64,000 nucleotides of DNA, taken from positions 2,274,696-2,338,695 of the forward strand of contig NZ_KI912155.1 in the NCBI RefSeq assembly GCF_000517125.1, given 5' to 3'. Shown one piece after another: positions 23,608 to 43,981 of the stretch (the stretch's first letter is position 1; each line of letters starts with the position of its first letter). This stretch comes from Arthrobacter sp. MA-N2. GTDB lineage: Bacteria; Actinomycetota; Actinomycetes; Actinomycetales; Micrococcaceae. Under the pieces are notes generated by a model. The model had not been told where the DNA came from. It worked only from the letters and a program-made list of their open reading frames with translations, and did not search any database. The translations under genes and the position numbers were made by a program.

Positions 23608-23717
23608 CGAGTACCCGTCCCACGCAGCAGGGGTACTTACACCCGCATACGAGTATCGGGCAGGATGAAAGTCGAGTACTCACTACTGGTGTAGGGCTGA
23701 CGGCGAGCTGGTTAATT
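23608..23717 (+). promoter_or_regulatory. CGAGTA-rich promoter region of LAL regulator 3
   Basis: Three CGAGTA hexamers lie at 23608, 23650 and 23673. The first pair are 42 bp apart, the same spacing as CGRGTA pairs upstream of the two polysaccharide operons. The third overlaps GAGTACTC. TTAATT at 23712 could be the -10, 39 bp after the last motif. GCATACGAGTA (23645-23655) resembles GCGTACGAGTA at 34523-34533. Confidence 0.4.
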
Positions 23718-23754
23718 GGGGGGTGTCACCACTCGATCACTGGGGGTCTCGCTC

Positions 23755-26538
23755 ATGTTGACAACAGGCAGTGCATCTACGGTCCATGCCATTCGGTCCG
23801 GGGGAGCGCCCCGGTACCAGGCATTCCACGCGGCCCCGGCCTCTTCGCCTGACGGAGCCGAAGGAAAGTCGATAATTTCGACGGCGTGGCCGCCGATTGG
23901 GCACAGGGCCGCCGTTGAAGACATCCCGCTCGCGCTGGCAACCGCCAGGGGAGGCGTGCTGGTGACGGGACCGTCGGGGAGTGGCAAGAGCTACCTGACC
24001 ACGCGCGCGGTGAACGAACTACGCAGCCACTCGTTCGTCGTCGTGATCCGCGGCAGCGCAGCGCTGGCGAAATCACCGTATGGCGCCCTGAATATCCTTT
24101 TGAGCGATCTGGACGCCGGGTACTTGGCCCATCCGGTCCTGGTGTTGTCGGCGCTGACCAATCTGCTCCGTGAGCGCGCCGAGGGAAAGCCGGTGTACCT
24201 GGTCGTAGAAAATGCTACCGAGCTTGACGAACTGGCGGCCATGACGGTGGCACAACTCGCGAGGAACGGCACTGCCCAGCTTATCCTGACCTGCACGGAC
24301 CCGCAGCGGCTCTGTGGCGAGATCACACGGCTCTGTGGCGACGGATTCCTGCACCGCATAGACCTCAAGCAACTGACTTTTCAAGAGTCCCACGCTTGGC
24401 TCGAGTCCGGGTTGGGCGCAAAAGTCTCGCCATCCGGCGCCCATGCCCTGTGGACGGCCAGCGGGGGTAACCCGCACTACCTCAAGATGCTAGCGGCGGA
24501 ACTGGCTGAATCCGGGGCGCTCCTGAAGAGCGACGGGGTCTGGGTCCTGACGTCACGAAGCGACGTGCACGGCCGGGCAATCACCGATCTCATCACTACA
24601 CGGCTTGGCCGGTTGGGCAGCGGTGAACGCAAGGTGTTGGAGGTCCTCTCCCTTGCCAAGGCAGCCCCCTTGGAATCCCTGCTGGCGCTCGCATCAGCGG
24701 ATGATGTGGACTCCCTTGAGAAGAGGGGCATCCTCGTCGTCGATGATTCGCTGCCCAGGATGGCCCGGTTGCAAAGCCAGCTTGTGGGCGACGTGGTCCG
24801 GGCGAACGTTCCCCCTGGCCGAAGCAACGAACTTCGGGGCGAGCTCCTTGAGGCGATGGATCCGTCCCTTGGCCAACCCTCGGTGGTGCTGTCCATGGCC
24901 GCGTGGGCGTTGGACTGCGGAGCCAAGCTGGGCACGGACGAAGTGATTGAAGCTGCCGCGATGGCCAACCGGCAACTTGATGCGCGCCTGGCCCTGCGCC
25001 TTGTCCGGTCCATCCCCAGCCATTCCACGATGCCCGGGGCGGTAGCCGAGGAAGCCCGTGGTTTGATGACGCTGGGGGACTTGGCCGGAGCCCAGGAAGT
25101 CTTGACGTTTTCCGCGGATCAATCCGGTGATGAAGCCACCCTCTCGGAATGGGTCCGGCTCAAGTTGGCCGAGTGCTCAATCCTTTTGGCCCGAGCCGAA
25201 ACCACGGCTCAGGCTTGCGAGACGCTGGCACGAATCCGCGGGCGGCTGGAAGACGAAACCGCCTCGGCCGGTGAAGGACGGGACGTCTCCGAGCTATGGG
25301 AGGACCTCGTCCTGGCCGAATCGCAGGCGGCCAGCTATTCCGGTTCCTATGCCGAGATGGCAGCAAAACTGGAAGAGGTACTTCAGGATTTTGAGTCGCA
25401 CGGGGTGGAATTCCGGCTTCTTGCCGGAAGCTGGCTGTGCGAGGCATGGGCCCTGACCGGACGGGAATCCGAGGCAGCGGACATGGCGGAACAGCTGATT
25501 GCCGCTTGCCATGATCCAGCTGTTTCGGTCGCCGCGGCCCGACGCGCTTCATCGCGTCTGAGATTCGCCTTCGTGCTTGCCGGGCGGTGGGACCATGCCG
25601 CGGAAATGGTCCAGCCCGGCGAAGACCTCCTGGGTTCCCCGGTCGAGGCACTCCCGACGGCGATCGATCTTCCTAAAGCAATCTTCCGTTGCCTCCAAGG
25701 ACGGGGCCAAGATGGCATGGAAGCACTCCTTCCGGTGATAAGCCAGCTGCGGGTACAGGACAACGAAGGCATGCTGGATGTCGCCTGTACAGCAGCGGCC
25801 TACGCCTCGGCCCTGCAAGGAGAGCAAGATCAGGCCTTGAGCTACCTGGAGGAAGCGTCCACCCAGCTGCGTCGGCCAACATGGCGGAAAGAGCGGACGA
25901 AGAAGTACTTCGTCGCGCTGGCCCGGGAGCGACTCGAGGGTCCGGAGGCCGCCGTCGAGGCACTCCTCAGACTGGCCGACGTCGACAGGGACGAAGGTGC
26001 CCCCGGCCACGAGATATTCTGCCTCAGTTCGGCGGTCCGGCTCGGGGCGGTGGCGGCCGCTCCGCGGCTGCTGGACTCGGCACTCCATTGCCAGGGCCGA
26101 TTCGCCGAATTGTGTGCCGCGTACGCTCGGGCGACGATAGCGGGCAGCGCAGAGCGTCTTCTTGAAGCAGCACAATTGGCAGAAGACATGCAGAACGACA
26201 GGTTCGCCTTCGATATCGCCGAGACCGTGTTGCACGTGGATCAGTTCCAGTTGGACAAGACGGCACTCAGGAGGGCCCGGCACCTCGCAGAAACGTGCCG
26301 ACAGCGTTTGCGCACACCTCAAAGCGGCAACAACGAGGGGATCAAGCTGACCGCGCGTGAGCTGGAGATTGCCAGGTTGGCGGCGAAGCGGGAAAGCAAC
26401 AAGGGCATCGCCGAGAAGCTCCACGTCTCGGTACGCACGGTGGAAGGGCACCTCTACCAGATCTTCGGCAAACTGAAGATCGTGGAACGCTCCGAACTGA
26501 GCTTCGCGCTTGGCAGCGTAGAAGGCGGTGCGCAATGA
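23755..26538 (+). CDS. LuxR-family LAL/MalT-type regulator 3
   Basis: The 927-residue protein has a canonical Walker A (GPSGSGKS, residues 72-79). Its Walker B is unusual, VYLVVENATEL, with a single Glu in place of the acidic Asp pair. A helical repeat region and a C-terminal HTH follow, the latter including LTARELEIARLAAKRESNKGIA and VRTVEGHLYQIF. The frame is open from a TTG at 23716, but I take the ATG at 23755 because GGGGG precedes it and the residues before it look non-coding. It starts a new transcription unit after a 201-bp gap and overlaps regulator 4 by four bases (ATGA). Confidence 0.88.
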   Translation: MLTTGSASTVHAIRSGGAPRYQAFHAAPASSPDGAEGKSIISTAWPPIGHRAAVEDIPLALATARGGVLVTGPSGSGKSYLTTRAVNELRSHSFVVVIRGSAALAKSPYGALNILLSDLDAGYLAHPVLVLSALTNLLRERAEGKPVYLVVENATELDELAAMTVAQLARNGTAQLILTCTDPQRLCGEITRLCGDGFLHRIDLKQLTFQESHAWLESGLGAKVSPSGAHALWTASGGNPHYLKMLAAELAESGALLKSDGVWVLTSRSDVHGRAITDLITTRLGRLGSGERKVLEVLSLAKAAPLESLLALASADDVDSLEKRGILVVDDSLPRMARLQSQLVGDVVRANVPPGRSNELRGELLEAMDPSLGQPSVVLSMAAWALDCGAKLGTDEVIEAAAMANRQLDARLALRLVRSIPSHSTMPGAVAEEARGLMTLGDLAGAQEVLTFSADQSGDEATLSEWVRLKLAECSILLARAETTAQACETLARIRGRLEDETASAGEGRDVSELWEDLVLAESQAASYSGSYAEMAAKLEEVLQDFESHGVEFRLLAGSWLCEAWALTGRESEAADMAEQLIAACHDPAVSVAAARRASSRLRFAFVLAGRWDHAAEMVQPGEDLLGSPVEALPTAIDLPKAIFRCLQGRGQDGMEALLPVISQLRVQDNEGMLDVACTAAAYASALQGEQDQALSYLEEASTQLRRPTWRKERTKKYFVALARERLEGPEAAVEALLRLADVDRDEGAPGHEIFCLSSAVRLGAVAAAPRLLDSALHCQGRFAELCAAYARATIAGSAERLLEAAQLAEDMQNDRFAFDIAETVLHVDQFQLDKTALRRARHLAETCRQRLRTPQSGNNEGIKLTARELEIARLAAKRESNKGIAEKLHVSVRTVEGHLYQIFGKLKIVERSELSFALGSVEGGAQ

Positions 26539-29216
26539 CCGAGGTGGTTTCGACCGAGCCGCTGGTCGGACGGTTCGGCGTCATGGCCGCCGTCGTGGAC
26601 TGCCTCCTCGATGTCAACGGCCCCGGGGTCCTGCTTTTCGGCGACGCCGGAATCGGAAAGACGGCACTGATTAACGAAGTGGTCCGCGAACTCGGGCAAC
26701 GCGTGCGCCCTTTCAGGGTCTTTGCCGGACCCACCCTGTCCTCTGTTCCCTTTGCGGCTTTGGCACCGCTCCTGACCGGATTGACGCCGGGCCAGATCAG
26801 TGAACCATTGTCAGTCCTCAGGACGGTCGTAGCGGCCTTGAATCCGGCGGGCCAGCCGCATCCGGCGCCCGCAGTCCTGATCGTGGAAGACGCACACCAC
26901 CTCGATGACAGCAGTGTGGCTGTCCTGGCACAGTTGGCGGCTGCGGAAGCCGCCAAGGTCGTGTTCTTGTGCCGCCCGTACCCTGCGCCGCCAGCAGAAG
27001 TTTTCTCGATGTGGTCCGAAGGGCTCGTGGATCGATTCGACCTGCAGCCACTCAACGAACAGGAAGTCAACCAATTGTGCGCCCAGACCTTGGACGCACC
27101 TGTCGTACAAAGCTCCAGCGCTGTTCTCTGCAAGTATTCCGGGGGAAACCCCATGTTCCTCCTGGAACTCATCGGGCATGCCAAGTCGCTCGGCCAGTTG
27201 GTCTGCCGCAACGACTCATGGATGCTTTCGGGAGAACTTCGGGGAACCAGCGTCCGGCTAATGGACCTTGTGCGGAACCAGATCCTCTTGCTCGGAGCCG
27301 AACAGCGGGAGACCTTGGAGACCGTGGCCTTGGCCGAGCCCGTCCCGCTGAGCGTAGTGCAGCAGGCCGGCAGCTCCAACGCCGTCGACGAGCTGCAGGA
27401 GCTGCATTTCATTGACATCGCGTCCGACCCTGCCCGGCATGTCCGGCTCGCCCAGCCGCTGGTGGGGGAAGTGATCCGTCAATTGGTCCCCACTGCCCAC
27501 AGCATGACGATCCGACGGCGCATCGTGGAGCTCATGGAGGCCAAGCCACAGACCATGGACGGCCTCCTGAGGTTCGTCTCCTGGGGATTGGAATCGGGCA
27601 CTGAGGTCCCGGACTCCGACATCCTGGAAGCAGCCCAGCTGGCCAACCGGCTGTTCATCCCGAGCTACGTGGAGAGGGTGGTCGGCGCGATCAAGGATCC
27701 TGCCCTGAGACTTGCCGCCCAAGTGGAGGTAGCGCGGGCCAAGTGGTACCGCGGCGATATCCGGGGATCAGTGTCATCGCTTGCGGGAGTGGTGGATCGG
27801 ACGCGTGATCCCCGGACTATCCGGCAGGCTTCGATGTTGGCGGCCCAACTCGCCGGCCGCCAAGGCCTCGGGCCGAACGCCGTCAAACAAGCCGCCTACG
27901 AATGGGAAGCGGCCCTCGCCAGGCTTGCCGAGTCTTCCCCCGGGATCGACCCCGCCGAGCTGGAACGCGGAAAGCTGGGAAGCAGGCTCCTTTCGCTCCA
28001 AGGCCTGCAAACCGAAGGCCACTACGTCGAAACGGAACGTGAACTCCGCCAGATTTGGAAAGAAACGGACGACGACGAGTCCCGACTCGTGGCGGCCACC
28101 TTGCTTTCCGAGGCGATGGCGGTCACTGGTCGGCCGGTATCTGCCCTCCAGATTCTGATGGGGATCCAGGAGATGGTCGCTTCGAGCGGCGATTGGAGTC
28201 TCCAATACGCGGGCTTTGTGATGCGCACTTACATCCTTGCCCTGCAACAAGCAGGCGAGTTTGCCGTTCTTGAGACATTCCTGAGGAATCATGTCTCACA
28301 GGCGCCGAACTCTCTCATCTATTCGGGCGGGATGCTCCATCTGGCGGCAGGGATGGTGGACTTGCGCAGAGGCGATCTGGGCGTGGCGCTTCCACGGCTT
28401 CGCCAGGCGGTCAGCATGCTGCGTGTCTCGGATATGGGAAACGAGCTGCCCGACGCCGTAGCTGCCGCCGCGTACGCTGCGTCGATCCTGAAACGCCGGG
28501 ACACTGCCATGACGTACTCAAACGAGTACGACGCATTGATCCGGGAAGGTGTGCATCCGTCCCTTCTGGCCCAAGGCCATGCGGCAGTTGCCAGGGCAGA
28601 TCAGAGCGGATCGCAGACAGCGATCGCGAGACTCATGTCGCTTGCGGATTCGGCGGCGGCGAACGGTGCGATCAGTGCGGAGATCGACATCCTCATGTTG
28701 GTGCTGAGACTGGGAGATACGAGTGTGGCGCGCCGGCTGATAGCGGTAGCCGAAGGCAGCGAAGGCCGCACCGCCGAGTTTGCCCTGAGCGTCGGACTGG
28801 CCTTGGTGCACAAGGACGCGGATCGCCTGATCGAGCTCAGTGATTCGGCCGCGAGGGATGGCTTAGAGCTTGCTGCGGCTGATTGTGCCAGCCACGCCCT
28901 CCGGATCTTGGAAAGCAGGGGGGACAAGGCGCGCCAGCTTGAGGGACAGCGGCTTCTCAAACGGCGCACCGCCGCCCTCGACAAGGCGAGCCCGGTTGTT
29001 GACGGGACTTCCCCCGACCTTCATAAGCTGACCAGGCGGGAGCAGGAAATCGCAACGCTCGTGCAATCGGGATCCAGCAACAAGGACATTGCGCTTGGCT
29101 TGGGCCTATCCCTGCGCACCGTTGAAGGCCATCTCTATCGGATGTTTGCCAAGCTTGGCATCAGCCACCGTGAGGACCTCATAAACGGAGTCCAAGGCAC
29201 GCAGGGCCAGGGCTAA
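26535..29216 (+). CDS. LuxR-family LAL/MalT-type regulator 4 (intact ATPase motifs)
   Basis: This 893-residue regulator is the only one of the five with fully canonical nucleotide-binding motifs: Walker A GDAGIGKT (residues 36-43) and Walker B VLIVEDAHHLDD (114-125). The helical middle leads to a C-terminal HTH with LTRREQEIATLVQSGSSNKDIA and LRTVEGHLYRMF. The ATG overlaps the stop of regulator 3. It is the gene closest to the polysaccharide operon, whose promoter starts about 110 bp downstream. I infer that it is the active ATPase member and that the others modulate it. Confidence 0.9.
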   Translation: MTEVVSTEPLVGRFGVMAAVVDCLLDVNGPGVLLFGDAGIGKTALINEVVRELGQRVRPFRVFAGPTLSSVPFAALAPLLTGLTPGQISEPLSVLRTVVAALNPAGQPHPAPAVLIVEDAHHLDDSSVAVLAQLAAAEAAKVVFLCRPYPAPPAEVFSMWSEGLVDRFDLQPLNEQEVNQLCAQTLDAPVVQSSSAVLCKYSGGNPMFLLELIGHAKSLGQLVCRNDSWMLSGELRGTSVRLMDLVRNQILLLGAEQRETLETVALAEPVPLSVVQQAGSSNAVDELQELHFIDIASDPARHVRLAQPLVGEVIRQLVPTAHSMTIRRRIVELMEAKPQTMDGLLRFVSWGLESGTEVPDSDILEAAQLANRLFIPSYVERVVGAIKDPALRLAAQVEVARAKWYRGDIRGSVSSLAGVVDRTRDPRTIRQASMLAAQLAGRQGLGPNAVKQAAYEWEAALARLAESSPGIDPAELERGKLGSRLLSLQGLQTEGHYVETERELRQIWKETDDDESRLVAATLLSEAMAVTGRPVSALQILMGIQEMVASSGDWSLQYAGFVMRTYILALQQAGEFAVLETFLRNHVSQAPNSLIYSGGMLHLAAGMVDLRRGDLGVALPRLRQAVSMLRVSDMGNELPDAVAAAAYAASILKRRDTAMTYSNEYDALIREGVHPSLLAQGHAAVARADQSGSQTAIARLMSLADSAAANGAISAEIDILMLVLRLGDTSVARRLIAVAEGSEGRTAEFALSVGLALVHKDADRLIELSDSAARDGLELAAADCASHALRILESRGDKARQLEGQRLLKRRTAALDKASPVVDGTSPDLHKLTRREQEIATLVQSGSSNKDIALGLGLSLRTVEGHLYRMFAKLGISHREDLINGVQGTQGQG

Positions 29217-29323
29217 CCGCACGCACAACTGACTTCCCACTCCCAGGCGGTGACCGATTCCCGGAAGCCGGCTTCCGCCGTCGTGCGCTGCAAAAGGCAC
29301 GCAAAGGGCGCTAGAGCCAAAAA

Positions 29324-29441
29324 CGAGTACTGAATCGAGTGGTTAAAAGTGCTTGAACGGGTAGTCAACGGTGGCTTGCGGGACAACGCATCCAAAGACG
29401 GGTAGAGCCCACTCGCGCCCGCCGTAGGGGTTGGTTAATAC
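29324..29441 (+). promoter_or_regulatory. Promoter/operator of the UDP-sugar dehydrogenase operon
   Basis: The region contains CGAGTA (29324), CGGGTAG (29358) and the inverted repeat CGGGTAG-AGC-CCACTCG (29399-29415). The block 29394-29424 matches 34565-34595 at 28 of 31 positions. TAATAC at 29436-29441 is a good -10 candidate and puts the inverted repeat centre near -41, the usual position for an activator that contacts RNA polymerase. A LuxR-type HTH dimer is a plausible binder, with one of the adjacent LAL regulators as the obvious candidate. Confidence 0.55.
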
Positions 29442-29491
29442 GCTCTTCTTGATGGCAACCGCCACTCAATTGGGGATAAGTGGGTCTCGAG

Positions 29492-29704
29492 ATGAAACGC
29501 AGGAAGAATTCTTTGCTAAAGGAAAACCAACCGGTAATCCGGCGAGAAATCAGCTCCAATGCGACCGGTCTCCCGCATTCTGCGGGTACCCCCACAAGCG
29601 AGCCGGCGGCGCGCGGACACGCGCCCTCTGAGACCAGGGCACAACCCGTTTCGTCGCCGGCTTTTTTTCACACTGGAGACAACAGGCACCGGGAGGTCGA
29701 CTGA
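29492..29704 (+). CDS. Possible 70-residue leader ORF upstream of the UDP-sugar dehydrogenase
   Basis: The ATG at 29492 lies three bases after GGTCTC. The ORF encodes 70 residues beginning MKRRKNSLLKENQPV and ends two bases before the dehydrogenase ATG. It runs straight through a structured hairpin with a T tract (29602-29668). It has no known domain and no good Shine-Dalgarno. Translation through the hairpin could block terminator formation, so it may be a regulatory leader rather than a functional protein. Confidence 0.4.
   Translation: MKRRKNSLLKENQPVIRREISSNATGLPHSAGTPTSEPAARGHAPSETRAQPVSSPAFFHTGDNRHREVD
29602..29668 (+). terminator. Branched intrinsic terminator (candidate attenuator) before the UDP-sugar dehydrogenase
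   Basis: The outer stem GCCGGCGGCG (29602-29611) pairs with CGTCGCCGGC (29652-29661) with one G-U pair and is followed by seven T. Inside are a CGCG-GACA-CGCG hairpin (29612-29623) and a GCCCT/AGGGC hairpin (29623-29640) whose loop contains TGAGACC. It lies downstream of the candidate promoter and 38 bases before the structural gene, where a terminator would attenuate the operon. Confidence 0.7.
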
Positions 29705-29706
29705 CC

Positions 29707-31089
29707 ATGGCACCGAACACGAAGGTAAAGACCCTCAAGACAGAGCTCAACGGAAGCTCACAGTCCTTGCACGCGCCTGCACCGGCATGGCCGGAGGGCA
29801 CGGCAGCAAGGACCACCACGCAAGACCAGGCATTCAGCTTCGACGTGGCAATCGTGGGCATGGGCTATGTGGGCCTGCCAACCGCCCTGGCAATCAACGC
29901 CTCGGGCCGGCGGGTGCTGGGCCTGGATGTGTCCGACGGCCGGCTCGCGGTGATCCGCGAGCAGCGGGCAGACCTTCTGGACTCCGACAAAGAGCGCCTC
30001 AGCAACGCACTGCTGGACCCTACGTTCATGCTGAGCAGCGATTTGTCGTTGCTTGCCCGTGCGGCGGCAGTGGTTGTTTGCGTTCCCACCCCGGTCGACG
30101 AGTATTTGGTCCCGGACCTCGGTATTCTTCGAGCGGCCTGCGCCTCCGTGGTCGATTTTGCCACCGCCGGCCAACTTCTGATGCTTACCTCTACGACGTA
30201 TGTGGGATCCACCCGGGACCTTCTGGCCTTGCCCCTGGCTGCCAAAGGGCTCATCCCGGGCCGCGACGTTTTCGTCGCATTTTCGCCGGAGCGCATCAAC
30301 CCTGGCGTTGACTCGTTCTCGCACGAAGATGTGCCCCGGGTCGTCGGCGGCGTAACCCCGGCTTGCGGGGAAGCGGCCGAACGCCTTCTGAGCGCGAGCA
30401 CCAAGCTGGTACACGTCGTCCCGTCGGCCGACGTCGCTGAAATGACCAAGCTCGTGGAGAACACCTTCCGGGCCGTCAATATCGCCTTGGCGAACGAGTT
30501 CGCTGATATCTGCCACGAACTCAACATGGAGGTCATGGACGTCATCGATGCGGCTTCCACCAAACCCTACGGATTCATGCCGTTTACCCCTGGGCCCGGA
30601 GTCGGCGGACACTGCATCCCCTGCGACCCCCATTACTTGTTGTGGCAATTGCGGAAGGCCCGCCTCACTGCGCCGGTGATCGAGCAAGCGATGGCCGGGA
30701 TTGCCGGCAGGCCCCACCAAGTGGTGGAAAAGGCCCGGCGGATCCTGTCGGACCGCAACCACGGTGTTTCCGGCGCCCGGGTCATGGTTCTTGGGGTCGC
30801 ATACAAGCCCGACGTCGAAGACCTTCGGGAATCCCCGGCGTTGGAGATCATCGCAGCCTTGATCGCCGACGGGGCCGAAGTGGCATACTCCGATCCTTGG
30901 TGCCAGACGGCGCCCGACGGGCACGGAGGGGAACTCCGCTCGGAGTCGTCGCCGGCTGAGTGGGGTGCAGATCTGGTGATCCTGCACACGAGGCACAGCC
31001 AAATGGACCTTGACTGGCTGGCCGGAGCAGCAGCAGTCCTTGATACGACGTACCGCTTGCCCAAAGCCGACAACGTAACCCGGCTCTAG
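29707..31089 (+). CDS. UDP-glucose/UDP-N-acetyl-hexosamine 6-dehydrogenase
   Basis: This NAD+-dependent enzyme oxidises the C6 of a UDP-sugar to a uronic acid for polysaccharide synthesis. After an unusual N-terminal extension of about 45 residues, the Rossmann motif GMGYVGLPTA appears at residues 51-60. The catalytic Cys is C303 in GGHCIPCDPHY, the form typical of UDP-GlcNAc/UDP-ManNAc dehydrogenases (WbpA/WecC/TviB group). The C-terminal domain contains GVAYKPDVEDLRESPALEI. At 460 residues it is slightly longer than usual because of the extension. It begins the polysaccharide operon and is followed by the epimerase gene after 29 bp. Substrate choice between UDP-Glc and UDP-HexNAc is inferred from the Cys motif only. 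Confidence 0.9.
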   Translation: MAPNTKVKTLKTELNGSSQSLHAPAPAWPEGTAARTTTQDQAFSFDVAIVGMGYVGLPTALAINASGRRVLGLDVSDGRLAVIREQRADLLDSDKERLSNALLDPTFMLSSDLSLLARAAAVVVCVPTPVDEYLVPDLGILRAACASVVDFATAGQLLMLTSTTYVGSTRDLLALPLAAKGLIPGRDVFVAFSPERINPGVDSFSHEDVPRVVGGVTPACGEAAERLLSASTKLVHVVPSADVAEMTKLVENTFRAVNIALANEFADICHELNMEVMDVIDAASTKPYGFMPFTPGPGVGGHCIPCDPHYLLWQLRKARLTAPVIEQAMAGIAGRPHQVVEKARRILSDRNHGVSGARVMVLGVAYKPDVEDLRESPALEIIAALIADGAEVAYSDPWCQTAPDGHGGELRSESSPAEWGADLVILHTRHSQMDLDWLAGAAAVLDTTYRLPKADNVTRL

Positions 31090-31118
31090 ATCCATTAGGT
31101 TTCGAGGAAGCAGGAGTA

Positions 31119-32123
31119 ATGAAAACAGCAATTACCGGCGGTGCCGGATTCATAGGAAGCCACCTTGTTGAGCATCTGCTGGCGGCCGGAGACGAAGTCG
31201 CAGTCCTGGACAACTTGTCGACGGGACGCCTGGAGAATCTCAAAGGCGTCATCGGCCACCGGGAGTTCCACTTCGTCGAGGGCACCATCCTCGACCGGGA
31301 CGCCGTGGACAAGGTGGTGGCCGGTGCCGATAGGGTCTTCCATTTGGCTGCCGCCGTAGGCGTGAACCTGATTGTGGACCACCCGCTGGAGAGCCTACGC
31401 ACGAATATCCATGGCACCGAAGTGGTTCTGGACTCGGTGCTGGAGTCGGGAGCCTCGCTGTTGTTGGCATCCACCAGCGAGATCTATGGCAAAAACGCCT
31501 CGGACAGCCTCTCGGAGGAAGCCGACCGCATCTTGGGATCCGCGCTCAAGTCCAGGTGGACATATGCGGCGGCCAAGGGCATCGATGAAGCATTTGCTCA
31601 CGCGTACTGGCGCCAGTTCGGACTCCCGGTTGCCATTGTGCGGCTCTTCAACACGGTGGGGCCGCGGCAGACAGGCCGCTACGGAATGGTTGTTCCGCGA
31701 CTCGTGCGCCAAGCGCTCCTCGGTGAGCCCCTGACGGTGTACGGCGACGGCAAGCAGACCAGATGCTTCTCCTACGTCGGTGACATCGTTCCGGCCATCA
31801 CCCGCATTTCCGAGGAACCACTCGCCTACGGGAACGCGTACAACCTCGGTGGCAGCTACGAGATATCCATCCTGACGCTCGCCGAACGGATCGTTGAACT
31901 CCTCGGAAGTAACAGCCCCATTTCGCTGGTTCCCTATGAGCAGGCCTACTCGGAAGGGTACGAGGACATGCGGCGGCGCGTTCCGGACAACAGCAAGTCG
32001 TTCGGCCTTGTCGGCTTCGACCCGAAGACCACCCTGGATGAAATCATCCTCAACGTCGCAGCCGACTACAAACCGGTGAAAGTCCTGGATCCCGCGGGTT
32101 GGAAAATCACCATGGCTTCTTGA
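31119..32123 (+). CDS. NAD-dependent nucleotide-sugar epimerase/dehydratase
   Basis: The 334-residue extended short-chain dehydrogenase has GGAGFIGSH (residues 7-15) for NAD binding, the Asp of VLDNLSTG for the ribose, and the catalytic Ser (ASTSEIYG) and Tyr-Lys (TYAAAK, Y149/K153). It resembles UDP-glucose 4-epimerase or UDP-glucuronate decarboxylase relatives. Its position directly after the UDP-sugar dehydrogenase suggests that it acts on the uronic acid sugar made there. An AGGAG-type signal precedes the ATG. The exact reaction cannot be read from the sequence. Confidence 0.88.
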   Translation: MKTAITGGAGFIGSHLVEHLLAAGDEVAVLDNLSTGRLENLKGVIGHREFHFVEGTILDRDAVDKVVAGADRVFHLAAAVGVNLIVDHPLESLRTNIHGTEVVLDSVLESGASLLLASTSEIYGKNASDSLSEEADRILGSALKSRWTYAAAKGIDEAFAHAYWRQFGLPVAIVRLFNTVGPRQTGRYGMVVPRLVRQALLGEPLTVYGDGKQTRCFSYVGDIVPAITRISEEPLAYGNAYNLGGSYEISILTLAERIVELLGSNSPISLVPYEQAYSEGYEDMRRRVPDNSKSFGLVGFDPKTTLDEIILNVAADYKPVKVLDPAGWKITMAS

Positions 32124-32165
32124 TTCCCCCAGGGCTGACGGTGGTAGCTGGTCCAGGAGGAAACA

Positions 32166-32264
32166 GTGGGTGGCCGGTCTCCGGCGATGTGCGGGGATCG
32201 ACCGCCCACGGCCACGTACACTGCGAACAAGCACCTGGTTAAGTCTCAAGGGAGTGAATGGTGA
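32166..32264 (+). CDS. Possible 32-residue leader ORF overlapping the next gene
   Basis: A GTG at 32166 sits five bases after a perfect AGGAGG. The 32-residue ORF (MGGRSPAMCGDRPP and onward) ends with a TGA at 32262-32264 that overlaps the start of the secreted-protein gene. This strong ribosome site with no room for another gene argues that it is translated. It may drive translation of the next gene by coupling. No family is recognised. Confidence 0.45.
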   Translation: MGGRSPAMCGDRPPTATYTANKHLVKSQGSEW

Positions 32265-33049
32265 ATACAGCGACGTCCGCCGTCAAGCGTCGGAAACGCG
32301 TATCTGTTGGTGTCGCATTTTGTCTCGCCCTGCTCACGGCAGCCTGTACGGGGCCCGGGCCGGGGCCTGGACCCACTCCGAGTCAAGGAACCACGGCCGC
32401 AAGGCAATACCCCTGGCACACCGGGATCGTGTCCACGACCTTTTGGGTCGGTGAGATCTTTGATCCCAACGCAGCAGACGGCAGCCAGGTCATGTCCACT
32501 TACGATTCCCAATGGATGCAGAGCTATGGAGGCTGCGACGGCGTTAACACGAATGGCTGCCAAACCGAGGCGCGAACGCAAGCCAAGGGATATGCGCCGA
32601 CCGCCATGACCCCAAAGCAGAACCCGTTCTATCTGGATCTTCCCTTCGACGACGTCAACGATGCCACTGCGTTCGCCGAACGCGCCAGCGTCATCCCCTG
32701 GGCCAACGACCCCGGATTCGCGGGCAACGCCCAAAACCGTTCATTCAGCTACATGAAGAACCAGTGGGTCAGAATCCGCAAGGACGGCCGTGAATGCTAC
32801 GGACAGATCGAAGACGCCGGCCCCGGCCAGTACCACGACAAGGACTACGTCTTCGGCTCCAACGATGCCCGCCCGGTGAACAAGAATTTCAACGGCGCCG
32901 GCATGGATGTCTCGCCCGCGCTCAACGGCTGCCTCGGTTTTTCCGAGCTTGATGGAGAGTCGGACAAGGTCGACTGGCAGTTCGTGGCACGCGACCAGGT
33001 TCCTGCCGGGCCGTGGTTGAACATCGTCACGGTCAGCCAAGTGCAGTAG
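32258..33049 (+). CDS. Secreted lipoprotein-like protein of unknown function, paralogue of the 37837-38907 product
   Basis: The 263-residue product has a basic N-terminus, a hydrophobic helix and a lipobox-like LLTAAC (Cys 30), so it is probably exported and lipidated. A Gly/Pro-rich linker is followed by a domain of about 210 residues with the motifs STTFWVGEIFD, QNPFYLDLPFDDVND, CYGQIEDAGPG, RPVNKNFNGAGMDVSPALNGCLGF and VPAGPWL. The same motifs occur in the same order in the protein encoded at 37837-38907. The pattern CYGQ-EDAGP followed by GAGMDVSPA recalls double-psi beta-barrel proteins (expansin/RlpA type), but this is a weak resemblance. It may bind or remodel cell-wall or capsule glycans. 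Start options are the ATG at 32258 and a GTG at 32261. Confidence 0.75.
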   Translation: MVNTATSAVKRRKRVSVGVAFCLALLTAACTGPGPGPGPTPSQGTTAARQYPWHTGIVSTTFWVGEIFDPNAADGSQVMSTYDSQWMQSYGGCDGVNTNGCQTEARTQAKGYAPTAMTPKQNPFYLDLPFDDVNDATAFAERASVIPWANDPGFAGNAQNRSFSYMKNQWVRIRKDGRECYGQIEDAGPGQYHDKDYVFGSNDARPVNKNFNGAGMDVSPALNGCLGFSELDGESDKVDWQFVARDQVPAGPWLNIVTVSQVQ

Positions 33050-33110
33050 GCCCCCGGTGCCTGGCCAGCCGTATCCGGTGCAAGCAATCCCTCGAAAACT
33101 GGAGGTATCC

Positions 33111-33215
33111 ATGCTGTGGTTCAAGAAGCTGTTTAGGCGCGGCAGCGGCCGGCACCTTGCCCGTCCGGCCGAAGCCAAGAACCGGGATAGAACGGATCGT
33201 CCGGGCCTGGCATGA
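33111..33215 (+). CDS. Possible 34-residue basic peptide
   Basis: The ATG at 33111 has an ideal GGAGG six bases before it. The product begins MLWFKKLFRRGSGRHLARP and is strongly basic with an amphipathic, hydrophobic N-terminus. It lies 61 bp after the secreted-protein gene in the same direction and ends just before the convergent GH18 gene. No family is recognised. The ribosome site is the main support. Confidence 0.4.
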   Translation: MLWFKKLFRRGSGRHLARPAEAKNRDRTDRPGLA

Positions 33216-33234
33216 TCCCGTCCTGGGGGCGGAC

Positions 33235-34410
33235 TCAGGGCAGCTTGCCCTGGAATCCCGCACCCAACAGGTCCGAGAAGCGCTGCGTCCCTTGGTCGAT
33301 GCCGCTGCAAACGTGGCTGGCCGGACCTTCCGGAGCGTTCTGCGGGCACTGCATGTCCCGATTCAACGACCACATGGACACTCGTTCCACGCCGTTGCTG
33401 ACGGCGAACGCGTTCAGCCCGCGTGCTGCATCCAGATCGAACACTTCGCCGGGGAGGTCGTTCAAGCCGATCATGGGGGTCAAGCCCATCTTCCTCCAAA
33501 TCTGCTCGCTGCTGAGGTCCATGCCCGCTCGTTGATAGATGATGCTGAGTTGCTCGTGGGTGGCCTGCGCTGCTGAGGTTCCGGCATCGAGCATGGTCTG
33601 GGAGTCCCTCCGGCTCGAACCGTAGTTCATCGTCATGATGTTGACGCCGGACAACTGGACCCCAGCGGCGAGCATCTGGTCGACGGCGGAGGTTCCGGCG
33701 TCGGTCAATCCTTGAGGGGTGACAGGGAGAGTCAGCCACACGGAGAGGGCTTGTCCTTCCTTGCTGCGTTCCTTCTGGAGGGCCCCGACAGCTGCTGCAC
33801 GGCGCTGCCACGCGGCGCTGTCCAGGAGATTGTCGCCTTCAATATCAAAGTCGATGGTTCCGGGGTTGTAACGCCGCAGTACGGCCCCGTAGGCGGTTTC
33901 CAGATCCGCCGCACTCTGGCAGGAGTTGGCAAGCTCACTGTTCACCGAGCCCCCGAAGGACACTGCGAACGCCCCGCCGTTTGACCGAAGCTTGGCGATC
34001 CGTTCCTCGAGGTTGAGCGAAGTCTTCGCAGCATCAAGGCTGTAAGTACTGCCCCAACTGGGCGTGCAGGGCTGTCCAGCCAATGCCACGACAAACGCCA
34101 ACGTGACATTCCTCGTGCCGTCTCCGGTGGGCGCCTCAAAGGGGTATTGCGGCACCACGGTGACATCAACGTATCCGGAAAACCAAGCTGGCTGGAGCGA
34201 GCCGTTTGCGTCGGTCGTCACCCGCCACACGAGAAGACCTCCGATCCCCGCCACCACCAGGGCGACGGCGATCCACGCCCTGGCGCGGGTTGACAGCGGG
34301 CGGCGTCTGTCGGAGCGATGTCCATCGGCTTCGGCGAACGGGCCACGGACGCCCCGTGCGGTGCCTGCTTCAGCCGCAACCGGGGTGTCATTTCCCTGTT
34401 TCTTGGACAC
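33235..34410 (-). CDS. GH18-family chitinase-like glycoside hydrolase
   Basis: The 391-residue protein has a basic cytoplasmic N-terminus, one hydrophobic helix (AWIAVALVVAGIGGLLVWRV, about residues 46-65) and an extracellular catalytic domain. GH18 hallmarks are present: the SxGG-type FAVSFGGSVN and the catalytic D-x-D-x-E in GTIDFDIEGD. The tail MSLNRD-like SMWSLNRDMQCP fits the last barrel strand of ChiD-type enzymes. It probably cleaves beta-1,4-GlcNAc or a related glycan outside the cell. It is transcribed against the polysaccharide genes on either side, and divergently from the deacetylase-GT2 operon. The start is a GTG at 34410 with a GGAGGAG that is rather too close, so the true start could be slightly downstream. 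Confidence 0.85.
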   Translation of the reverse strand: MSKKQGNDTPVAAEAGTARGVRGPFAEADGHRSDRRRPLSTRARAWIAVALVVAGIGGLLVWRVTTDANGSLQPAWFSGYVDVTVVPQYPFEAPTGDGTRNVTLAFVVALAGQPCTPSWGSTYSLDAAKTSLNLEERIAKLRSNGGAFAVSFGGSVNSELANSCQSAADLETAYGAVLRRYNPGTIDFDIEGDNLLDSAAWQRRAAAVGALQKERSKEGQALSVWLTLPVTPQGLTDAGTSAVDQMLAAGVQLSGVNIMTMNYGSSRRDSQTMLDAGTSAAQATHEQLSIIYQRAGMDLSSEQIWRKMGLTPMIGLNDLPGEVFDLDAARGLNAFAVSNGVERVSMWSLNRDMQCPQNAPEGPASHVCSGIDQGTQRFSDLLGAGFQGKLP

Positions 34411-34527
34411 GCTCCTCCGCCATCCCTAGACTCCGAATGTCCTAATGCACCATTTCACCACGAACAGACTTGATTCGCGCTGACTGCGCCCCGGGGCCGT
34501 ATTCCGCTTGCGTTGGTGCGTAGCGTA

Positions 34528-34611
34528 CGAGTAGTGGCGCGGTCCTGGGGGCCAATGTTGCGCGAAAGACGGGTAGAGCCTACTCGTGTCCGCCGAGGCT
34601 TGACTTCATAC
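34528..34611 (+). promoter_or_regulatory. Promoter/operator of the deacetylase-GT2 operon
   Basis: CGAGTAG (34528) and CGGGTAG (34570) are 42 bp apart. The second forms the inverted repeat CGGGTAG-AGC-CTACTCG (34570-34586). TCATAC (34606-34611) is the -10 candidate, 36 bp from the start of the repeat. The block 34565-34595 is the partner of 29394-29424, so the two polysaccharide operons are probably co-regulated. Confidence 0.55.
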
Positions 34612-34661
34612 GCTGATGAGGTCAGTTGGTTGAGGGCAACGGGGGAAAGACAGGTCTCACA

Positions 34662-34931
34662 ATGGAAACGGACGCTCTGGTCCGAGCGGCATCTGGACGA
34701 AGCGGATTGATCCTGGGAGGCGCCTGGCTTGAGTTCGAGTCCGTTCTGGGGGGGCTCCGTGCTGTTCCTCGCCAAAATCCATCGCCAATTGACAGTGTTG
34801 CCTTATGGCAGCACGCCCTCGCAGGGAGGGCCCCTGAACGGGGGCCGGTGGTGAATAAGCCTTTGAGACCGAGGCTTCCCCCAGTCGCCACCGGCCCCTT
34901 CAGGAATCTGCCGAACGAGGGTCTGCGATGA
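34662..34931 (+). CDS. Possible 89-residue leader ORF overlapping the deacetylase-like gene
   Basis: The ATG at 34662 lies three bases after GGTCTC, exactly as in the leader ORF at 29492. The frame encodes METDALVRAASGRSG and onward with no known domain, and its TGA overlaps the deacetylase-like start by four bases (ATGA). The ORF spans a large hairpin (34841-34898). The shared layout with the other polysaccharide leader suggests a regulatory or coupling role. Protein function is unknown. Confidence 0.45.
   Translation: METDALVRAASGRSGLILGGAWLEFESVLGGLRAVPRQNPSPIDSVALWQHALAGRAPERGPVVNKPLRPRLPPVATGPFRNLPNEGLR
34841..34898 (+). promoter_or_regulatory. Nested leader hairpin with TGAGACC loop
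   Basis: A perfect 11-bp stem, GGGGCCGGTGG (34841-34851) with CCACCGGCCCC (34888-34898), encloses a second hairpin, AAGCCT/AGGCTT (34857-34862 and 34872-34877). The loop of the inner hairpin contains TGAGACC. This loop is fully complementary to GGTCTCA at 34653-34659. There is no T tract here, so it is more likely to act on translation than as a terminator. Confidence 0.6.
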
Positions 34932-36337
34932 GTTCCGAAGGGAAGGACCGCGCATCCGGCCCGGTCCGCACTTCCAGGAAACGGGCGGGCTTCTGGGCGG
35001 TCTCATGGGTGGCGGTGCTGCTCCTGTTAACGGGTACTGCCCCGCTGATCAATGGAAGCCGTGCTCCCGTAGATGGGGCCGGGAACGGTAGCCCCACGCC
35101 TTCCGCGCCGCTGTCCTCTGTCAGCCTCACGTTCGATGCCGGCAGGTCAAGCCAGATGGAAGCAGCCCGGATCTTGAAGGACCACGGCCTCCGCGGCACC
35201 TTTTTCATCGACTCGGGCTTTGTTGGTGCTCCTGGCTATATGACCATGGACAACCTACACAGCCTGGCGGCGGACCAGAATGAGATCGGTGGTCATACCG
35301 TCACGCTTGCCGATGTGACCTCGGTAGAGCCTGACGAAGCGTCACGGCAGATCTGCGACGATCGGGTGAACCTGACGGATTGGGGCTTTAAGGTCACGTC
35401 CTTCGCCTACCCGTTCGCGGCCTCATCGGCTCCGGCGGAAAGAATCGTCGCTGGATGCGGCTACAACAGCGCCCGGGGTCTCGGCGAAATCCACACGCCC
35501 CTTGACTGTGCGGGCTGCGTTGCCGCAGAAAGCGTCCGGCCCGCAGACCTTTTCCGAACACGGGCAGCATCAGAGGTCGGCAGCGCTTGGACCTTGGCAA
35601 ACCTTGAGGCGACGGTAGAGCAAGCGGAAAAAGCCGGAGGCTGGTTGCAGCTGGCCTTCTACGACATAGATGACAGCGGCAGTCCCCGCTCCGTCAGCCC
35701 GGCCTTGTTCGAACAATTCGCCACCTGGCTGGCAGCGACGACCGGAACAGGGACAATGGCCGTGCGCACGGTACATGAGGTGATCGGTGGCGTGGCGCAA
35801 GCGGTGGTGAACGGGCCGGTACCTGCACCGGCGGCACCGGGCAAAAACGCCATTCGGAATCCTGGACTGGAAACCATCGGTAAGTATGGCTTGCCCCAAT
35901 GCTGGCAGGTTTCGTCTTACGGCAAGAATGCCGCCGTGCTCAGCACCTTGACTCCGGGGCACAGCGGTGAGGTGGCCCGACGCCTGGACGTGACGGAATA
36001 TGCGTCCGGTGACGCGAAATTGCTTCCCGTCCTCGATCTTGGAGCATGCGCCCCGAGCGTGAGTGCCGGCCATAGCTATTCACTTCGTGCGTGGTATCAG
36101 TCCACCGCGAAGACCCAATTTGAAGTGTATTACCGGAACAAGCTCGGTACGTGGACCTACTGGACGGCCAGTCCGTGGTTTGCAGCAAACACCAGCTACG
36201 AACAAGCGATCTGGCAGACCCCGCCGGTTCCTGCCGGCGCTGAGGCAATCAGCTTTGGCTTGAACCTCTTCAGCGATGGCCAGCTTGCTACCGATGATTA
36301 CGAGATGTACGACACAATTGGAGCTCCGTCGCCGTGA
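34928..36337 (+). CDS. Polysaccharide deacetylase-like protein with degenerate active site
   Basis: The 469-residue protein has an N-terminal membrane helix (about residues 23-40), a NodB-type deacetylase domain (about 62-270) and a C-terminal beta-rich, carbohydrate-binding-like domain (about 310-465). The fold is clear from VSLTFDAG, GTFFIDSGFVG, EIGGHTVTLADV and SFAYPFA. In active enzymes the first motif is TFDDG and the second HTxxH. Here the metal-binding second Asp is Ala (A71) and the second His is Leu (L127), leaving only H123 of the metal triad. Catalysis is therefore doubtful, and a glycan-binding or scaffold role is possible. The stop overlaps the GT2 start as GTGA, giving a PgaB-PgaC-like pair. 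Confidence 0.85.
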   Translation: MSSEGKDRASGPVRTSRKRAGFWAVSWVAVLLLLTGTAPLINGSRAPVDGAGNGSPTPSAPLSSVSLTFDAGRSSQMEAARILKDHGLRGTFFIDSGFVGAPGYMTMDNLHSLAADQNEIGGHTVTLADVTSVEPDEASRQICDDRVNLTDWGFKVTSFAYPFAASSAPAERIVAGCGYNSARGLGEIHTPLDCAGCVAAESVRPADLFRTRAASEVGSAWTLANLEATVEQAEKAGGWLQLAFYDIDDSGSPRSVSPALFEQFATWLAATTGTGTMAVRTVHEVIGGVAQAVVNGPVPAPAAPGKNAIRNPGLETIGKYGLPQCWQVSSYGKNAAVLSTLTPGHSGEVARRLDVTEYASGDAKLLPVLDLGACAPSVSAGHSYSLRAWYQSTAKTQFEVYYRNKLGTWTYWTASPWFAANTSYEQAIWQTPPVPAGAEAISFGLNLFSDGQLATDDYEMYDTIGAPSP

Positions 36338-37707
36338 TACTTCTTTCAATCTTTTTGGTTCTGGGGATCAGCACGATTTTTTGGTCGGTGGCCGGGCTTG
36401 TCCGCTTGGTGGGGGAGCGGTGGTGGCGCGTCCGGGAATTGTCCAGGCGGGCCCGCGACCGGATCTATCTGCAGTTTGGCGGCAAGGCGCCGATCCCACG
36501 ACGGGCACGCCACCGTTCAAAAGGAGCACGGATCTATCCTTCGAACGTCGCGGTCCTCGTGGCTGCCCACAATGAGGCCCTCGTCATCAAGGAAACAATC
36601 CTTGCCGCGTCAGCTTTGGTTCCGCGACGCAACATCCACGTCATATCGGACATGTCCACTGACGACACCGCCGCCATCGCGCGGGCAGCCGGGGTAAAAG
36701 TCCTCGAGCTCGAACCGAATCGCGGTAAAGCGGGTGCGCTCGCGGCAGGCATCGCCCATTTTGATCTGTGCAAGCGGTTCAAGGTGGTCATGCTCTTGGA
36801 CGCCGACACCCGCCCGTCTCCGGACTACCTCGAAACCGGCCTGCCGCTGTTTTCCGATCCCACGGTGGTCGCCGTCGCGGGACGCGCCAAGTCGATCATG
36901 AGCCCCGCACCCCCAACGGCGATGGGCCGCTTCCTGGTGGCTTACCGGGAGCGTTTGTACATCGTGGTTCAATTGCTGCTCAAATACGGCCAAGCATCCC
37001 GCGGCGCGAATGTCGTCTCGATCGTTCCGGGATTCGCCAGCATGTACAGAACCAGCGCGCTCGCAAAGATCGAGGTCTTGGCGCCCGGCCTGGTGATCGA
37101 AGACTTCAACATGACGTTCGAAATCCACGCGAAGAAGCTGGGGCGAATTGCGTTCCATCCAGGGGCAGCTGTCGCCTATACGCAGGATCCGGACAATCTG
37201 AAGGACTACATCAAGCAGGTGCGTCGTTGGATCCTTGGCTTCTGGCAGACCGTCAGGCGGCACGGCCTGCAATTCAGCAAGTTCTGGTTTGTCCTGGGCC
37301 TTTACATCGTTGAGCTCGTTGCAAGCTGCATCTTCTTTGTGCTGTTGGTGCCCGCGTTCCTCCTGTCGTCCGTCGCCGCCGTCGAGGTGTGGATCTTTGG
37401 GAATCGATCGGACGTCTTTGTCTTCCTCTCCGGCGTCCTGCGGCCGCAGGACGTCCTGATCGGAGTCTTCCTGCCGGACCTTGTCTTGACAGTGCTTGCC
37501 GCTGTTTCGATGCGCAGCGCGCGCTTCTTGTTGCTGGCTCCCTTGTTTCCGTTCATGCGGATCCTGGACGCCGTCATCTGCCTCCAAGTACTGCCTAAGG
37601 CATATTCGTCGCGCTCGTCGGGGGTTTGGGTCAGCCCGGTTCGGAGGGTTCAACGCACCCCTCAGGGGATCAACGTACCCGAACGGTCCGTCGTGAGGAC
37701 CGGCTAG
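36334..37707 (+). CDS. Processive family 2 glycosyltransferase (polysaccharide synthase)
   Basis: The 457-residue integral membrane enzyme has one N-terminal helix, a cytoplasmic GT2 domain and several C-terminal helices (about residues 310-420). All processive GT2 motifs are present: VAAHNE (77-81), SDMSTDD (first Asp), LLDADTRP (DxD at 156-158), VIEDFNMT (catalytic ED at 256-257) and QVRRW (295-299). It resembles PgaC/IcaA and hyaluronan-type synthases that polymerise and export a sugar chain in one step. It starts with GTG overlapping the deacetylase-like stop by four bases. Probable donors are UDP-GlcNAc or the uronic sugar from the dehydrogenase-epimerase pair; this is inferred. Confidence 0.9.
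   Translation: MILLSIFLVLGISTIFWSVAGLVRLVGERWWRVRELSRRARDRIYLQFGGKAPIPRRARHRSKGARIYPSNVAVLVAAHNEALVIKETILAASALVPRRNIHVISDMSTDDTAAIARAAGVKVLELEPNRGKAGALAAGIAHFDLCKRFKVVMLLDADTRPSPDYLETGLPLFSDPTVVAVAGRAKSIMSPAPPTAMGRFLVAYRERLYIVVQLLLKYGQASRGANVVSIVPGFASMYRTSALAKIEVLAPGLVIEDFNMTFEIHAKKLGRIAFHPGAAVAYTQDPDNLKDYIKQVRRWILGFWQTVRRHGLQFSKFWFVLGLYIVELVASCIFFVLLVPAFLLSSVAAVEVWIFGNRSDVFVFLSGVLRPQDVLIGVFLPDLVLTVLAAVSMRSARFLLLAPLFPFMRILDAVICLQVLPKAYSSRSSGVWVSPVRRVQRTPQGINVPERSVVRTG

Positions 37708-42092: not shown

Positions 42093-43981
<1,889 letters not shown>

Follow-up and report, generated by a model that had tools for sequence, protein, structure and literature searches.

We analyzed a 64,000-nucleotide stretch of the genome of Arthrobacter sp. 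MA-N2 (contig NZ_KI912155.1, positions 2,274,696 to 2,338,695; hereafter the window), in which two polysaccharide operons, A and B, are each preceded by a near-identical block. An earlier reading of this DNA from its letters (the sequence-only reading) had taken the two blocks for a shared operator, with the neighboring LAL regulators, which carry LuxR-type helix-turn-helix (HTH) domains, as candidate binders. Our comparison of related genomes indicates that the operator block forms just the 5' part of a larger, paralogous cassette, which continues with a GGTCTC-ATG box, a leader open reading frame (ORF) and an RNA hairpin. A LAL-linked operator combined with a covarying hairpin in an open leader ORF is a larger finding than the two blocks. 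Operator, spacing, hairpin, open leader frame and overlap with the first gene are well supported by this comparison. On balance we favor a reading in which each of the polysaccharide operons has a two-layer cassette, made of an operator for an activator of the LAL1-4 type and a leader switch coupled to translation. All window features are on the plus strand unless stated otherwise.

The blocks at 29394-29424 (AAAGACGGGTAGAGCCCACTCGCGCCCGCCG) and 34565-34595 (AAAGACGGGTAGAGCCTACTCGTGTCCGCCG) agree, by direct reading, at 28 of 31 positions, and all three mismatches are C/T changes, as had been claimed; ∼7e-4 pairs of blocks with at least 28 of 31 matches are expected in 64 kb (from base composition only, with positions taken as independent). 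The 18-mer ACGGGTAGAGCCYACTCG, which lies within the blocks, has two exact matches in the MA-N2 genome, namely blocks A and B. With up to three mismatches the full pattern finds four sites in this genome and eight for the reversed control, and we thus regard the two extra sites, both with three mismatches, as chance-level. A scan of named genomes with the 18-mer returned 15 stretches, 14 from Arthrobacter and one from a planctomycete contig. In a sample of 150 genomes of the genus, which includes MA-N2, the full block (up to three mismatches) is present in 14, among them MA-N2 and one genome of the same species, and is paired in 11, with no match for the reversed control; this count concerns presence of the block only, whether or not the other 136 genomes have the operons. 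When up to six mismatches are allowed, both copies are found in all 14 block-carrying genomes.

Operator A (CGGGTAGAGCCCACTCG; 29399-29415) was delimited by block comparison and a sequence logo, and operator B (CGGGTAGAGCCTACTCG; 34570-34586) by the same means and by operator scoring. Recurrence of the operator was assessed at promoters found by their hairpin: a regular expression that requires [CT]GAGACC and CCCCAG gave 101 distinct hairpin cores, of which two with less than 420 nt of upstream sequence were dropped, and the best operator-like site between 400 and 60 nt upstream of each of the remaining 99 cores was scored out of 12. A site scoring at least 10 is present in 91 of the 99 promoters (6.8 expected from mononucleotide shuffles), and 43 reach 12 out of 12 (0 expected). 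The first 14 loci had been picked by the operator itself and are biased in its favor; with these removed, the counts are 77 and 29 of 85. Further promoter and leader counts refer to dissimilar representatives with an operator score of at least 10 (69 promoters, 68 leaders). The logo of the 69 promoters reads AAAnTCGRGTA-N5-YACTCGTG, and the gapped inverted repeat first seen in the two blocks can thus be described as a recurrent operator with the consensus CGRGTA-N5-YACTCGTG. By eye, there are extra half-sites 5' of operator A (CGAGTACT, CGAGTGGT and ACGGGTAGT; 29324-29365), which are kept with small changes in 11 aligned A promoters (also by eye), and one 5' of operator B (ACGAGTAGT; 34527-34535).

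The operator is followed at a mostly fixed distance by a -10 hexamer, which starts 39 nt after the first C of the operator in 39 of the 69 promoters, 40 nt after it in 10 (49 of 69 combined) and 34 nt after it in 11. In the window the spacing logo assigns this hexamer to TACGCT at 29439-29444 and 34609-34614, with predicted transcription starts at ∼29451 and ∼34621. Of the earlier promoter assignment, the fixed spacing stands for most promoters; TAATAC and TCATAC have to be given up for the conserved TACGCT 3 bp further downstream, which moves the starts from 29448 and 34618 to those given here and the repeat center from -41 to near -43. No -35-like signal is conserved between operator and -10 in the 69 promoters. 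Class II activators bind near the -41 position first assumed, and the predicted center near -43 is still class II-like; together with the missing -35 and the mostly fixed -10 spacing this supports the operators as candidate class II activator sites, the transcription starts being predicted only.

Searches beyond the paired promoters were less specific. A looser operator pattern matches the MA-N2 genome 231 times and its reversed control 538 times, and because the controls outnumber the matches we claim no genome-wide regulon from them. CGRGTAN5YACTCGTG with one mismatch finds 12 sites in the same genome, and as the reversed control finds 5, single operator sites elsewhere in it are uncertain. 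A combined operator and GGTCTC-ATG pattern gave 17 matches in 17 of 121 genus genomes and 17 for the reversed control; this chance-level result was not used, and the gap range of the pattern (22-52) was too narrow, given that promoter B of the window needs 64.

Alignment of 11 A leaders and 13 B leaders rules out a duplicated operator with nothing else in common. In both leaders GGTCTC (29483-29488 in A and 34653-34658 in B, from the leader alignment) closely precedes an ATG, with a variant GGTCTT in the A leader of genome G020. The ORF that begins at this ATG spans 29492-29704 in A (70 amino acids) and 34662-34931 in B (89 amino acids), and it is open in all 14 genomes, with 70-72 codons in A and 63-89 in B. 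The shortest B leader ORF (L065, genome G091) differs from the 89-codon form by 78 nt in frame, and keeps the hairpin. Leader ORF A stops 2 nt before the start codon of a dehydrogenase gene, and the stop of leader ORF B overlaps the start of a deacetylase gene (ATGA).

Each leader can fold into a long outer stem around an inner hairpin, whose loop contains GAGACC and is complementary to GGTCTC. Core A (29601-29668; from folding and alignment) has its outer stem at 29601-29611/29652-29662 and its loop GAGACC at 29630-29635, and the outer stem runs into seven T residues (29662-29668) in a terminator-like manner. Core B (34837-34902; from folding and a covariance model) has its outer stem at 34841-34854/34885-34898, its inner stem at 34857-34862/34872-34877 and its loop GAGACC at 34865-34870. 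A 60-nt alignment block over core B is identical in 13 of 13 sequences; genome G020, which lies outside the alignment, differs. The hairpin is part of the minimum-energy fold of the B leader (z-score -3.1), and none of 100 shuffled sequences is equally stable.

The hairpin extends well beyond these 14 genomes. In a sample of 395 genomes from 32 genera of the family, the core B pattern with up to three mismatches occurs in 21 genomes and 3 genera, with no match of the reversed control among the matches listed, and a covariance model (E <= 0.001) finds the hairpin in 224 genomes and 18 genera, with up to six copies per genome. An alignment of 14 cores that was not fitted to the structure has 6 base pairs changed on both sides, with 99.6% of cells paired; among 37 model-aligned copies, two-sided changes occur in 11 of 19 pairs (62 cells), and pairing reaches 99.9% of cells. 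Out of 500 shuffled alignments none reaches the paired percentage or the covariation score, one attains as many pairs with two-sided changes and 26 attain as many pair types, and sliding the partner by one to three columns lowers pairing to 24-56%. The unpaired bases GAGACC (in the inner loop of ∼7-10 nt) and CCCCAG (in the internal loop) are invariant in 37 of 37 copies. Matches of the model to the opposite strand (16-30 bits) reflect the palindromic stem. In a phylum-wide sample, model R2 finds the hairpin in 2 of 346 genomes, MA-N2 and one of the same genus, by a scan whose strict filters may lose weak copies and which did not sample the order by itself. No Rfam family matches the 14 loci at its gathering score, and two Rfam matches in window positions 29200-35100 are both far below gathering. 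As neither Rfam nor the open-licence papers listed in our searches describe this element, we consider the RNA apparently undescribed.

Three further observations concern divergent or tandem copies. A third, diverged hairpin of the MA-N2 genome (L088, C1:3567144-3567219) has a variant loop, GAGCCC, and an operator-like CGAGTACACGCCACTCG upstream. A weaker hairpin-like match (32 bits) on its minus strand (L089, C1:3285583-3285649) keeps CTGAGACC and CCCCCAG. At locus L135, on the minus strand, a single leader holds two tandem hairpins (2992-3059 and 3109-3176) at a spacing of 117 bp.

The leader frame appears to be under selection in the wider set as well. GGTCTC is present in 37 of the 68 dissimilar leaders (3.4 expected), and in 32 an ATG follows the last box within 12 nt. 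Where a leader has a GGTCTC-ATG start, the frame of this ATG is open through the hairpin in 33 of 33 cases, compared with 6 and 1 for the remaining frames; shuffles would give 5.1. Likewise, in all 14 further leaders whose ATG follows a G-run (13 ANTAR-like leaders and L163) the frame is open, the other frames being open in 1 and 0, and 15 of 20 distinct start-to-loop lengths fall in one phase. In 20 of 32 leaders, that of window B among them, an ATG or GTG in the frame of the next gene sits at offset -4 relative to the leader stop, and every other offset within 60 nt has at most three leaders; this count covers 32 of the 33 leaders with a GGTCTC-ATG start, L173 dropping out for lack of an in-frame stop in its locus, and includes two leaders from one tandem pair.

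The peptide, on the other hand, is almost unconstrained. Outside the hairpin core, the ratio of nonsynonymous to synonymous changes (pN/pS) is 0.84 for the 13 A sequences and 0.90 for the 14 B sequences; inside the core it is 0.84 in A and 0.68 in B. The core is read in one phase by 40 of 47 leader ORFs (..SETKAxPQPSSAP.. or alike) and in another phase by class B. GAGACC is read as GAG ACC in A and as (TT)G AGA CC(G) in B; because the frames differ, the conservation of GAGACC is at the nucleotide level. Of the 21 leaders with no recognized start, 10 keep the hairpin although their main-phase frame contains neither ATG nor GTG. As the frame stays open while the peptide is nearly free to change, the leader frame and its translation, rather than the peptide product, seem to be selected.

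Some leaders depart from this layout. In the ANTAR class (L067, L070, L071, L075, L077-L081, L084, L110 and L112-L118) a G-run flanked by CTCAC/GTGAG often stands in the place of GGTCTC, and the leader ORF often runs in frame into the ANTAR gene. At L183 and L188 (C1:812907, minus strand, and C1:645644 of the MA-N2 genome) operator-like sites are followed by a leader GGTCTC, and no hairpin was noticed at these two loci.

The window encodes five large regulators, for which the LAL name and the general properties that go with it are our presumption. They were assigned with Pfam and with a hidden Markov model (HMM) built from the five proteins: LAL1 (18096-20816; LuxR-type HTH with the recognition helix SVRTVEGHLYQ, no ATPase match listed), LAL2 (20737-23553; SVRTVEGHLYR), LAL3 (23755-26538 from a proposed ATG start at 23755; SVRTVEGHLYQ), LAL4 (26535-29216; SLRTVEGHLYR), which lies directly 5' of promoter A, and LAL5 (39338-41998; AVNTVNAHLQR). 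Of the ATPase-domain matches, those of LAL3 and LAL4 pass the curated cut-off, and those of LAL2 and LAL5 fall below it. For 50 of the 99 cores, the 1200 nt upstream contain the 3' end of a gene for a LAL-type HTH protein in the same orientation (50 rows from 48 loci). The recognition helices of these 50 are SVRTVEGHLYR-like; R, T and H are invariant, V and E occur in 49 each and G in 48. Genera with LAL4-like genes (E <= 1e-25) overlap those with the hairpin: the two are jointly present in 14 genera and jointly absent from 13, while 4 genera have the hairpin alone and 1 has the LAL gene alone (Fisher p = 8e-5, from samples of 158 and 395 genomes and with phylogeny ignored). LAL1-4, which share the RTVEGH helix seen beside this operator elsewhere, are thus likely binders of the blocks, as had been proposed for the neighboring LAL proteins; LAL5 is a weak candidate because its helix differs. 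We consider it probable that a LAL protein binds the operator and activates from it.

LAL3 itself has an operator-like site with one mismatch (CGAGTACTCACTACTGGTG; 23673-23691, from the genome pattern scan), followed by a -10-like TTAATT (23712-23717), GGTCTC (23745-23750) and the ATG at 23755, which is probably its start rather than the TTG at 23716. No hairpin was noticed in this leader (23673-23757). Because an operator match, a -10-like element and a GGTCTC-ATG start come together here, LAL3 may be autoregulated.

How the two layers might work can be sketched as follows. In the first, an activator bound to CGRGTA-N5-YACTCGTG near -43 would compensate for the absent -35 element. In the second, translation of the leader ORF would bring ribosomes to the first gene of the operon, the peptide hardly mattering; coupling would be provided by the 4-nt stop/start overlap in B and many relatives, and across the 2-nt gap in A. 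Fast ribosome loading would cause the hairpin to be run through and the operon to be expressed. With slow loading, the GAGACC loop would pair with GGUCUC at the leader start, shutting the leader and silencing the coupled gene, and in A the hairpin with its seven T residues would also be free to terminate transcription. The pairing of loop and box as a switch, which we suggest tentatively and as a genuine possibility, is proposed because the two are complementary and suitably placed. In 30 of 33 leaders pairing could extend to the base that follows the box and the one that precedes GAGACC (as G-U in 7), and in leader B a G-run before the box is complementary to a C-run after the hairpin, forming an inverted pair.

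Several observations weigh against the two-layer reading. GAGACC hardly varies, which leaves the loop-box pairing with almost no support from covariation, and covariation cannot test the six core bases since these do not change. The minimum-energy fold of the B leader contains the hairpin and not the loop-box pairing. GGTCTC is absent from 31 of 68 leaders, which notably include those of the ANTAR class, the majority of the sufS-like leaders and g32. The A leader is weakly more stable than its shuffles (z-score -2.0, 7 of 200 equally stable), and core A matches model R1 weakly (27.1 bits, E 0.0037), so that its membership rests on position, loop and architecture. The larger covariation count (11 of 19 pairs) comes from a structure-fitted alignment. 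At least six T residues in the 8 nt after the outer stem are found in 5 of 68 cores only, which speaks against a general intrinsic terminator; as the core usually lacks a U-tract, termination fits A better than most copies. The co-occurrence of LAL genes and hairpins across genera depends on the threshold, besides ignoring phylogeny, and 49 of 99 hairpins, that of promoter B among them, have no LAL gene directly upstream (by our own assignment, 39 of these 49 belong to the deacetylase or ANTAR classes).

A serious rival, although in our view a less probable one, is that the hairpin binds a protein or a ligand, in the manner of a riboswitch or of epsC (EAR)- or JUMPstart-like antitermination, with the complementarity to GGTCTC being secondary. 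Invariant unpaired bases such as GAGACC and CCCCAG are what one would see in a binding site, and the hairpin stands 5' of sugar-transferase and deacetylase genes in many genera. Yet neither the 14 loci nor window positions 29200-35100 match Rfam at gathering scores, no candidate partner is known, and the frame is open in all 33 leaders with a GGTCTC-ATG start. That same open frame around the hairpin also argues against the quite unlikely view that the operator alone is regulatory, the leader being plain coding sequence and the hairpin a terminator or mRNA-stability element. The operator would indeed suffice to explain co-regulation, and the A hairpin is followed by seven T residues, but the T-run is rare elsewhere, and neither the conserved GAGACC and CCCCAG bases nor the strong covariation fits this view. 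It is similarly improbable that a non-LAL regulator with a LuxR-type HTH binds the operator: there are operators before ANTAR genes without an adjoining LAL gene, whereas LAL genes adjoin 50 of 99 cores and share a common helix.

It is very unlikely that an ANTAR antiterminator targets the hairpin, and we reject this reading because the geometry does not match. Some copies do precede ANTAR genes; 18 of 92 downstream proteins carry an ANTAR domain, and one hairpin class precedes (GAF-)ANTAR genes. ANTAR targets consist of two stem-loops with six-base loops that have A at position 1 and G at position 4 (PMC8164766), whereas the RNA described here has one inner hairpin with a loop of ∼7-10 bases and no A1/G4 hexaloop pair. 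Least probable, and likewise rejected, is a functional small protein whose C-terminal motif conserves the nucleotides as a by-product: despite the common phase of 40 of 47 leader ORFs, pN/pS is 0.84-0.90 outside the core, the phase in which this RNA is read differs in class B, 10 of 21 start-less leaders lack a main-phase ATG or GTG with the hairpin kept, and many stem changes are compensated pairs.

The two-layer cassette resembles several known systems in part. As in MalT, the window LAL proteins are large with a C-terminal LuxR HTH, and activation from a promoter-adjoining site appears likely. MalT boxes are GGA[TG]GA (PMC9628970); the operator described here differs from them in being an inverted repeat, CGRGTA-N5-YACTCG, in the logo of 69 promoters. 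The ilvB-II motif of Corynebacterium is an RNA motif that proved to be a translated upstream ORF (uORF), whose peptide is enriched in branched-chain residues (PMC10272879). Like ilvB-II as characterized there, the cassette is a conserved actinobacterial leader region that contains a uORF (predicted here); it differs in having a peptide under almost no constraint, a conserved RNA hairpin and a uORF that often extends into the first gene. With amino-acid leader-peptide attenuators the cassette shares the leader ORF (33 of 33 open, with the -4 overlap in 20 of 32), but we saw by eye no run of a sensed amino acid in the leader peptides, and pN/pS (0.84 in A and 0.90 in B) gives no sign of a constrained peptide. 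The epsC (EAR) and JUMPstart elements are leader elements of polysaccharide operons as well (PMC2864571). Compared with what is described there, the present element matches no Rfam family and is embedded in an open leader ORF downstream of a LAL-type operator, and epsC and JUMPstart may be regarded as functional analogues at best.

The genes behind the two cassettes were assigned with Pfam. Operon A begins with a gene of the UDP-glucose/GDP-mannose dehydrogenase family (29707-31089), followed by a gene for an NAD-dependent epimerase/dehydratase (31119-32123), and operon B with a polysaccharide deacetylase gene (34928-36337), followed by one for a family 2 glycosyltransferase (36334-37707). A 263-codon ORF 3' of the epimerase gene (32258-33049) has no Pfam match, and a 391-codon ORF on the minus strand (33235-34410) has a sub-cutoff match to glycosyl hydrolase 18 (E 2.2e-4). 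Pfam was run on 92 of the 99 downstream frames; the second rows of the tandem loci L135 and L155 were omitted, as were, by eye, L057, L072, L076, L111 and L160, where the longest frame was out of place (some similar cases were kept). The 92 proteins comprise 30 matches to bacterial sugar transferase, 18 to ANTAR, 17 to polysaccharide deacetylase, 10 to aminotransferase class V, 3 to AAA_16 and 2 to BTAD, and the downstream proteins form clusters of 31, 18, 17 and 10. The aminotransferase class V matches are those that we take to be SufS-like. At L120-L124, L175-L177, L180 and L085 the hairpin lies between a LAL gene and such a sufS-like gene, and none of these loci has a recognized GGTCTC-ATG start. 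In the window, LAL5 is followed by an aminotransferase class V gene (42153-43487), and no hairpin was found between the two.

If the two-layer reading is extended, the hairpins might form a family-wide RNA class in which a hairpin in a sacrificial leader ORF recognizes, through its loop, the GGUCUC-AUG start of that ORF; hairpins of this class, stand-alone copies that lack a leader ORF included, would moreover target this start signal in trans in further mRNAs of the regulon, for example that of LAL3, which has GGTCTC-ATG without a hairpin. We think this extension unlikely; if true, it would tie LAL-driven transcription, translation and the level of the regulator into one circuit of polysaccharide control. 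Taken together, our comparison provides the poorly understood LAL family with a predicted and readily testable operator, along with a recognition helix to match and a set of targets. A second outcome is an apparently undescribed structured RNA, present in over half of the sampled family genomes (224 of 395) and often located beside polysaccharide genes. With its open frame, nearly free peptide and frozen hairpin, the leader offers a clear test case for translation-coupled control of biosynthetic operons.

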